Shown: positions 63,580-63,757 of the stretch, in pieces | Position numbering within the stretch: position 1 is the stretch's first letter | Layout of the letters: every line of letters starts with the position of its first letter | Assembly (NCBI RefSeq): GCF_900105945.1 | Contig: NZ_FNSO01000004.1 | Coordinates: forward strand, 124,001 to 188,000 | Reading direction: 5' to 3' | From: Amycolatopsis tolypomycina | Lineage (GTDB): Bacteria > Actinomycetota > Actinomycetes > Mycobacteriales > Pseudonocardiaceae | DNA length: 64,000 nucleotides | Program-made: the position numbers and the translations under genes | Notes under the pieces: generated by a model | Seen by the model: only the letters and a program-made list of their open reading frames with translations | Told to the model about the DNA's origin: nothing | Databases searched by the model: none

Positions 63580-63655
63580 CCTTTCGGGAGTGCCTGGGGG
63601 CGCTCCCGGCGACACCTACGTCAATCGCCTGGCCGTGACTGGCGGGGGAGCACCC
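63580..63655 (-). promoter_or_regulatory. Candidate translational attenuator of the Rox-like gene
   Basis: In the mRNA, segment 1 (63646-63655, inside the leader ORF) can pair over 10 bases, one of them G-U, with segment 2 (63598-63607). Segment 2 can instead pair with segment 3 (63585-63594, with 6+3 bp around one mismatch), next to the AAAGG ribosome site at 63580-63584. The two pairings exclude each other. Read by eye; energies not computed. Confidence 0.55.
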
Positions 63656-63674
63656 ACGTCGATCCAGCGTTCAT
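63621..63674 (-). CDS. 17-codon leader ORF upstream of the Rox-like gene
   Basis: ATG at 63674 six bases after a near-perfect GAGGAGGTG (63681-63689), the best ribosome site in this part of the window. The product would be MNAGSTWVLPRQSRPGD. Its codons 7-10 are one arm of the alternative hairpins, and it ends 48 bases before the Rox-like start codon. The ribosome site and position argue for real translation; the peptide family is unknown to me. Confidence 0.65.
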   Translation of the reverse strand: MNAGSTWVLPRQSRPGD

Positions 63675-63711
63675 GGGTCTCACCTCCTCGGGCGGTGTCA
63701 CGGTCCCGGGC

Positions 63712-63757
63712 AAGGTACAGCCCAGGGCGTGACCCCGTCCATTTCTTTTGTCGTTTT
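63712..63757 (-). promoter_or_regulatory. Promoter of the Rox-like leader with AT-rich upstream box
   Basis: Read leftwards: AAAACGACAAAAGAAA (63742-63757, 12 of 16 A/T in very GC-rich DNA), -35 TGGACG (63736-63741), an 18-bp spacer and -10 TACCTT (63712-63717). An AT-rich box just upstream of -35 is the mark of WhiB7-dependent promoters of intrinsic drug resistance genes (family knowledge). WhiB7 control is inferred. Confidence 0.5.

Follow-up and report, generated by a model that had tools for sequence, protein, structure and literature searches.

Rifamycins do not act on ribosomes, and the locus studied here raises the question why a gene for a predicted rifamycin monooxygenase should stand behind a short leader ORF and competing hairpins. 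The gene, rox, lies on the minus strand of the window, i.e. the whole 64,000-nt stretch of Amycolatopsis tolypomycina DNA that was analysed. An AT-rich box, -35 and -10 elements, a 17-codon ORF with its ribosome site and two mutually exclusive stems had been described upstream of rox in an earlier note, and all of them are present on that strand. Two pairings of the window leader go beyond that description, namely a:d and b with the front of c. The features are listed below.

63745..63750, minus strand: A-rich box CAAAAG, at the position of the WblC/WhiB7 motif GAAAWY (4/6 matching)
63736..63741, minus strand: -35 element TGGACG, fitting TKGMNN, 3 bp after the A-rich box
63712..63717, minus strand: -10 element TACCTT, fitting TANNNT, spacer 18
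63697..63703, minus strand: arm a, CCGTGAC, at the predicted 5' end; partner of d
63681..63689, minus strand: leader ribosome site, GAGGAGGTG; GGAGGTG is invariant across 82 leaders
63621..63674, minus strand: leader ORF, MNAGSTWVLPRQSRPGD, 17 codons plus stop TGA
63674..63678, minus strand: arm b, ACCCA, extending into the leader start codon; partner of the front of c
63646..63655, minus strand: arm c, GGGTGCTCCC, within the leader ORF
63633..63639, minus strand: arm d, GTCACGG; partner of a
63625..63629, minus strand: arm d2, GGCGA; partner of e1
63599..63616, minus strand: arm e, with e1 (TCGCC, 63612-63608) within its outer part and e2 (GGGAGCGCC, 63607-63599)
63573..63594, minus strand: arm f, GGCACTCCCGAAAGGCACCACC, holding the rox ribosome site GAAAGG (63585-63580)
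63655-63646 with 63607-63598, minus strand: stem c:e2, 10 pairs
63616-63599 with 63594-63573, minus strand: stem e:f, enclosing the rox ribosome site
62130..63572, minus strand: rox, rifamycin monooxygenase, GTG start at 63572, 480 codons

Arm e is common to the stems c:e2 and e:f. Transcription is expected to start near 63705-63704, as inferred from the 7-8 bp rule described in PMC7157823. A generic sigma-70 scan detected no promoter at the leader. An intrinsic terminator on the rox strand was considered and rejected, the scan having found a single terminator-like site, which lies on the opposite strand. Folding of the 166-nt leader stretch gave z = -2.90, with 2 of 200 shuffles folding equally well; for the view that the leader structure is more than chance, conservation among loci is decisive and ranks above this value.

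The target had been read as a flavin monooxygenase of the Rox kind, and indeed the window protein scored 800.1 bits against NCBIfam NF033145 (rif_monoox), just over the cut-off of 800. Its closest solved relatives are 5vqb (Rifampin monooxygenase) and 5kow, which we take to be Rox of Streptomyces venezuelae and of Nocardia farcinica, respectively, and its identity to N. farcinica Rox is 65% over 470 residues. The leader-bearing locus L040 of strain TP-A0468 encodes a protein with 67% identity to N. farcinica Rox and is the sole rox-grade gene in that strain (next best 48%). MsRox of the same strain is described as 67% identical to N. farcinica Rox and as degrading rifamycin SV, and rifampicin was converted well by just one of the five enzymes tested in that work (PMC7283461). 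Based on strain and identity, not on an accession, L040 is equated with MsRox, which is thus almost certainly leader-type, so that at least one enzyme of the leader clade degrades a rifamycin. Window Rox belongs to the same clade as L040 and is predicted to degrade rifamycins as well. The window also contains a second FAD monooxygenase (56654-58687), which lies ~4 kb from rox next to a PadR-type regulator and reached 403.9 bits on rif_monoox (cut-off 800).

The leader was present in 83 of the 147 fetched loci and in seven actinobacterial families. This share is no census, since loci L009-L088 are the best 80 of 576 relatives, and the 147 loci include seven paralogues from the window's own genome that are not rox. 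In alignment A1, which comprises 82 distinct leaders, the ribosome site, c and e2 were nearly invariant. The proportion of paired cells was 95.6% for a:d, 97.3% for b:c, 93.8% and 98.9% for the outer and inner parts of e:f, 99.7% for c:e2 and 99.5% for d2:e1. Taken jointly, c:e2 and d2:e1 were paired in 99.7% of the cells, compared with 33-61% after sliding by 1-3 columns. Covariation in A1 was weak owing to the high sequence conservation: the combined score of a:d, b:c and e:f was reached by 43 of 500 shuffles, and that of c:e2 with d2:e1 by 2 of 500, the latter signal consisting of two cells in d2:e1. In a Virgisporangium rox locus (L043), arm f is kept with one mismatch and the upstream region has neither leader ORF nor arm c; this arm f would be a remnant of the switch.

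The leader is not specific to rox genes, as had been supposed, but precedes five gene families. A covariance model (R1) built from the A1 rox leaders matched 78 of 80 genomes of the genus at E 0.1 and 118 of 394 genomes of the class at E 0.01. Eighty hand-picked matches were opened, 20 from the genus list and 60 from the class list, none of them weaker than E 1.2e-4, and the genome counts thus include weaker matches than those opened. All 80 preceded members of the five families: 24 GNAT acetyltransferase, 30 hydrolase, 19 methyltransferase, 6 patatin and 1 rox gene. In 50 of the 80, the first residue of the target fell exactly at the end of the model. GNAT and patatin targets matched Acetyltransf_1 and PF01734, respectively, and the methyltransferase target matched TIGR03704 (PrmC_rel_meth) with 409.4 bits (cut-off 248.8). 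Among the hydrolases, L224 matched the esterase 4ao6 (E 3.1e-39), L240 matched Hydrolase_4, and L214 and L227 matched no Pfam family. The window's own genome contains a second leader copy (L207, G000:C4:6214971-6215110, minus strand, 127.8 bits), located before a GNAT acetyltransferase gene. A search of Rfam 15 returned no match at E 1 around the window leader and none at gathering score in the whole window, and the four weak matches at other loci all lay outside leaders. The suggestion that the element is undescribed holds for Rfam 15 and for the openly licensed papers that were searched. Hence, we conclude that the leader RNA family is real, conserved and undescribed within the literature searched.

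Alignment A2, consisting of 55 diverse leaders, was used to assess covariation in this wider family. For a:d, 92.0% of the cells were paired, three pairs with nine cells were changed on both sides, and the score was reached in 0 of 500 shuffles. Slid controls of a:d gave up to 16 both-sided cells, so its support comes from pairing and score. For the inner helix of e:f, 91.0% of the cells were paired and four pairs with nine cells were changed on both sides (0 of 500 shuffles; two cells at most in slid controls). Changes were also seen in the outer e:f helix, which is not part of these counts, e.g. GGTGT:ACACC versus GGTCGT:ACGACC. Stem c:e2 was paired in 98.2% of the cells, showed no double change and did not score above shuffles; in 7 of the 55 leaders its last pair is lost and e:f is kept. 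In the comparison of rox upstream regions that the earlier note had proposed, the ORF and the stems are kept; in the wider family, a:d and e:f covary and c:e2 does not. These alignments support a:d and e:f as structures, and c:e2 is supported by its invariance only.

Our preferred reading, to which we assign a probability of about 0.55, is that the ~150-nt leader is a switch that controls translation of the next gene through the position of a ribosome held at the leader start (codon 1 or 2), with WblC/WhiB7 acting at the promoter. The attenuator logic proposed earlier, a leader ORF combined with competing stems, is supported, and a ribosome-position attenuator of some kind is likely; sensing at the start site, as modelled below, has somewhat better than even odds. 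The RNA would present in order a, the leader ribosome site, the start codon with b, c, d, d2, the stop codon, e, and f with the target ribosome site. In the absence of a ribosome, a:d and b:c would sequester c, so that e:f forms and closes the target. If a ribosome is instead stalled on the start codon or codon 2 of the leader, it would cover b and leave c free. Once e has been made, free c would pair with e2 (and d2 with e1), leaving f open and the target translated, whereas a ribosome moving on would cover c, and e:f would again shut the target. The switch would probably be triggered by ribosomes that stall during the first steps of elongation, an effect of e.g. lincosamides, streptogramin A and pleuromutilins, in combination with WblC/WhiB7 acting on the promoter. 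We infer here that the leader is transcribed and translated, where the ribosome is arrested and which drugs induce. According to PMC12421871, these three drug classes arrest ribosomes at the start codon of short uORFs in Streptomyces coelicolor.

The folding of the switch was simulated with transcripts ending just after e2, before f has been made, and with the ribosome footprint set codon by codon. The simulation left out six rox loci (L013, L032, L061, L064, L070 and L144), and 116 of the remaining 117 transcripts were parsed. The modelled probability of c:e2 was 0.03 in rox and 0.01 in the other leaders without a ribosome, rose to 0.68 and 0.71 with a ribosome on the start codon and was 0.66 and 0.50 with the ribosome on codon 2. 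On codon 3 it was 0.01 and 0.04 and then stayed at approximately zero up to codon 13. The start effect persisted when the leading edge of the footprint was set between +13 and +20, and dropped at +22. In 97 of the 116 transcripts, the distance from the first base of the start codon to the beginning of c is 19 nt. Once the transcript extended 20 nt past e2, e:f won at equilibrium, and it did likewise in the full-length RNA whatever a ribosome at the start did, so that the switch must be kinetic. Equilibrium access of AAAGG was discarded as a measure of switching, since ribosome position had hardly any effect on it (5 of 117 unparsed), GAAA being a loop in e:f; pair probabilities on shortened transcripts were adopted after this result.

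The modelled profile favours sensing at the start site and leaves sensing at the stop site as the main rival. A ribosome paused at the leader stop would cover e1 and block outer e:f, c might then pair with e2, and slow termination or recycling would turn the gene on. Indeed, the modelled c:e2 rose a second time near the leader end, reaching 0.74-0.79 in rox (codon indices 15-16) and up to 0.59 in the others. This rise would need pairing around the ribosome, and with the stop codon in the P site, c:e2 reached just 0.32 in rox and 0.17 in the others. The end of the ORF is kept although the frames differ, in 111 of the 116 transcripts the first base of the stop codon is followed by e2 at a distance of 10-17 nt, and one of the targets is a relative of PrmC, the methyltransferase of release factors. 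The fixed distance from the start codon to c would however be left unexplained, and we regard sensing at the leader end as rather unlikely.

Considerably less probable is direct binding of a small molecule or protein to the leader, i.e. a riboswitch or a protein-bound leader in which the ORF is secondary. It would agree with the strong sequence conservation and with the start codons of the methyltransferase branch, where all 19 leaders (L246-L257, L260-L262, L264-L266 and L286) lack AUG or GUG at the aligned start and have AUU (11), AUC (7) or GUU (1) instead. In these leaders, the switch may read initiation, or the ORF may have been lost. A strong ribosome site and codon 2 as AAC or ACC are nevertheless kept in all five families, no Rfam family was matched, and competing stems suit control by ribosomes.

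The leader peptide had also been seen as a possible sensor. Arrest of the ribosome by a nascent MNAVSxWVLP together with a drug, like in the classical erm and cat leaders, could account for the common M-N-A and for the WVL frame over c, which was found in 135 of 161 leaders of all types as parsed. However, c is read in the other two frames in 20 and 6 leaders, i.e. in 26 of 161 as parsed or in 25 after correction for L272, a GNAT leader among the 20 whose start was mis-parsed as ACA and which truly is WVL. The prevalence of WVL rests partly on common descent. The C-terminus likewise shifts frame (VTAGR, SRPGD or RHGRR) as the RNA stays, and two stops in GATTGACGTAG preserve the ORF end across frames, with TGA at codon 18 or TAG at codon 20. 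Occurrence of c in three frames favours the RNA, and not the peptide, as the functional part. Moreover, a ribosome stalled on WVLP would sit on top of c, which would promote the shut state. Peptide-specific arrest is thus not supported by these comparisons, and we consider it very unlikely.

The promoter had been taken to be of the WhiB7 type, which agrees with our analysis. WblC-activated promoters are described as GAAAWY, 3 bp, TKGMNN, 16-19 bp and TANNNT (PMC7157823), and the window sequence fits this consensus at 11 of the 13 defined positions. At least 11 of 13 were reached by 68 of 84 leader-type rox, 20 of 24 GNAT and 21 of 30 hydrolase promoters, compared with 0 to 0.4% of shuffles; these promoters share ancestry and the rows are therefore not independent. 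The same level was reached by none of 6 patatin, 19 methyltransferase and 43 RAE-type rox loci (see below), the latter scored in a fixed 76-nt stretch unaligned to promoters. The patatin-like genes behind the leader (L232, L236, L241, L258, L259 and L263) have promoters unlike the WblC type. Seven WhiB-family matches were found in the window's own genome, one of which (L293) bears RPRGRPRK near its C-terminal end, which we take to mark WhiB7. The window promoter is, by its motifs, of the WblC/WhiB7 regulon type, and its dependence on WblC/WhiB7 is predicted.

Several points count against the ribosome-position reading itself. Stem c:e2 lacks a double change, the switch is purely kinetic and modelled, and c:e2 rises again near the leader end. 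Furthermore, the A-rich box matches at four of six positions, two target families lack the promoter, and rifamycins are not ribosome drugs. The last point would mean that rox belongs to a broad stress regulon or responds to some other inducer.

A tree of 139 rox sequences, from which L059 was left out because its frame breaks early, separated two sides. The first comprised 43 rows, of which 37 carry the palindrome GGGGCTTGCGGCAAGNCCC within two mismatches and six carry neither element. The second, which includes the window, comprised 96 rows: 82 with the leader, ten with neither, three palindrome-like and one with the palindrome (L052, on the first branch). None of 140 rox loci had palindrome and leader together within 600 nt. 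We take the palindrome of the sister clade, the letters of which come from these loci, to be the published rifamycin-associated element (RAE). The earlier picture of rox regulation thus caught the leader but missed a palindrome that fits the known RAE at many other rox genes. The leader label needs eight changes on the tree, meaning that its gain was not clean or that later losses occurred; the simplest history would be that the palindrome was lost, and the leader acquired, close to the root of one clade. Three leader-clade rox genes without leader (L066, L071 and L147) have a palindrome-like core, and L015, L139 and L142 have only a ATATATCGCTTGCG-like sequence near the start; these six may represent a return to, or a remnant of, the older element.

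Upstream of the window rox, the best match to the palindrome within 600 nt has six mismatches, and its own genome contains no copy within one mismatch. An RAE in the window promoter was considered and rejected: the sequence surrounding the -10 resembles an imperfect palindrome, but the part conserved across the clade is a -35/-10 promoter. An altered substrate in the leader clade was rejected as well, only 7 positions being fixed differently (at least 90%) and 220 the same between 37 RAE-type and 82 leader-type proteins, which does not prove that the substrate is the same. PMC10719064, PMC12802891 and PMC10194278 describe a palindrome of 19 bp in front of genes for rifamycin resistance. That the leader senses a rifamycin through slowed or uncoupled transcription, as considered in the earlier note, is highly improbable: the enzyme class destroys rifamycins (PMC7283461), but the four other target families have no known rifamycin link and rox genes with the likely RAE lack the leader.

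The N-termini of the targets suggest how the leader reached rox. Starts were parsed for 79 of 83 leader-type rox genes, and 26 of these 79 have an N-terminal extension of 25-39 residues; L010, L011, L017, L025, L026, L039, L053 and L141 are among them, and the extension of window Rox has four residues. Aligned with 14 of the 15 hydrolase N-termini, the extensions had a mean local score of 48.2 (shuffled mean 19.5, maximum 39), and 64% of the pairs were above the shuffled maximum, compared with a mean of 18.9 against GNAT N-termini. In the best pair, L053 rox and L224 hydrolase, 22 of 33 aligned residues are identical. The leader and the first codons seem to have been carried into rox from a hydrolase gene by fusion.

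If the ribosome-position reading is true, a widespread attenuator family absent from Rfam joins the antibiotic responses of actinomycetes, and the genes behind it are predicted to share one trigger. The GNAT, the esterase-like hydrolase, the patatin-like protein and the PrmC-related methyltransferase would be candidate answers to ribosome-targeting drugs, and N-terminal fusion would be a route for moving a regulatory leader between unrelated genes. AmRox of Amycolatopsis mediterranei was transcriptionally silent in published RNA-seq and is termed a conditionally activated self-resistance gene (PMC7283461); if AmRox bears the leader, it may be activated by translation stress, and not by rifamycin. 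More tentatively, the leader could be a mobile device, tied to no particular gene, that senses ribosomes stuck during initiation or at formation of the first peptide bond and has been passed on as promoter, leader and first codons, with a methyltransferase branch that may read initiation. The rox clade, including the enzyme of a rifamycin-type producer, might then have exchanged a switch specific to rifamycins for one that answers translation stress in general; we consider this wider scenario possible but doubtful. The puzzle of a rifamycin enzyme behind a ribosome-dependent leader becomes milder if the window rox clade is driven by translation stress.

Among known systems, the trp attenuator has the same 1:2, 2:3, 3:4 topology; it responds to tRNA charging and has a terminator at its end, in place of which a Shine-Dalgarno site stands here. 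The erm and cat translational attenuators also have a hidden ribosome site that is opened through a stalled ribosome, but depend on the codon or peptide of arrest in the leader. The RAE, found upstream of rox, rgt and helR (PMC10719064, PMC12802891), would control the sister-clade rox, where the palindrome has 19 bp as described. It is portrayed there as a palindrome in the DNA, presumed to be the binding site of an unknown factor, whereas the window rox instead has a WblC-type promoter and a leader ORF. The whiB7/wblC uORF attenuator (PMC7157823, PMC10727445) is likewise an actinobacterial leader ORF that answers stalled ribosomes in the same regulon; as described, it ends in a Rho-independent terminator, whereas the window hairpin covers a ribosome site and no terminator was found on the rox strand. 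The accounts of the Are5sc, TiaA and CplR uORFs (PMC12421871, PMC10201436) agree with our reading in that the uORF is short, ribosomes are arrested at its start, the peptide sequence matters little and hairpins compete. Those uORFs have 3-9 codons and control single ABC-F genes, mostly through transcription attenuation, whereas the leaders described here have 14-20 codons, would act on translation and precede five unrelated gene families.
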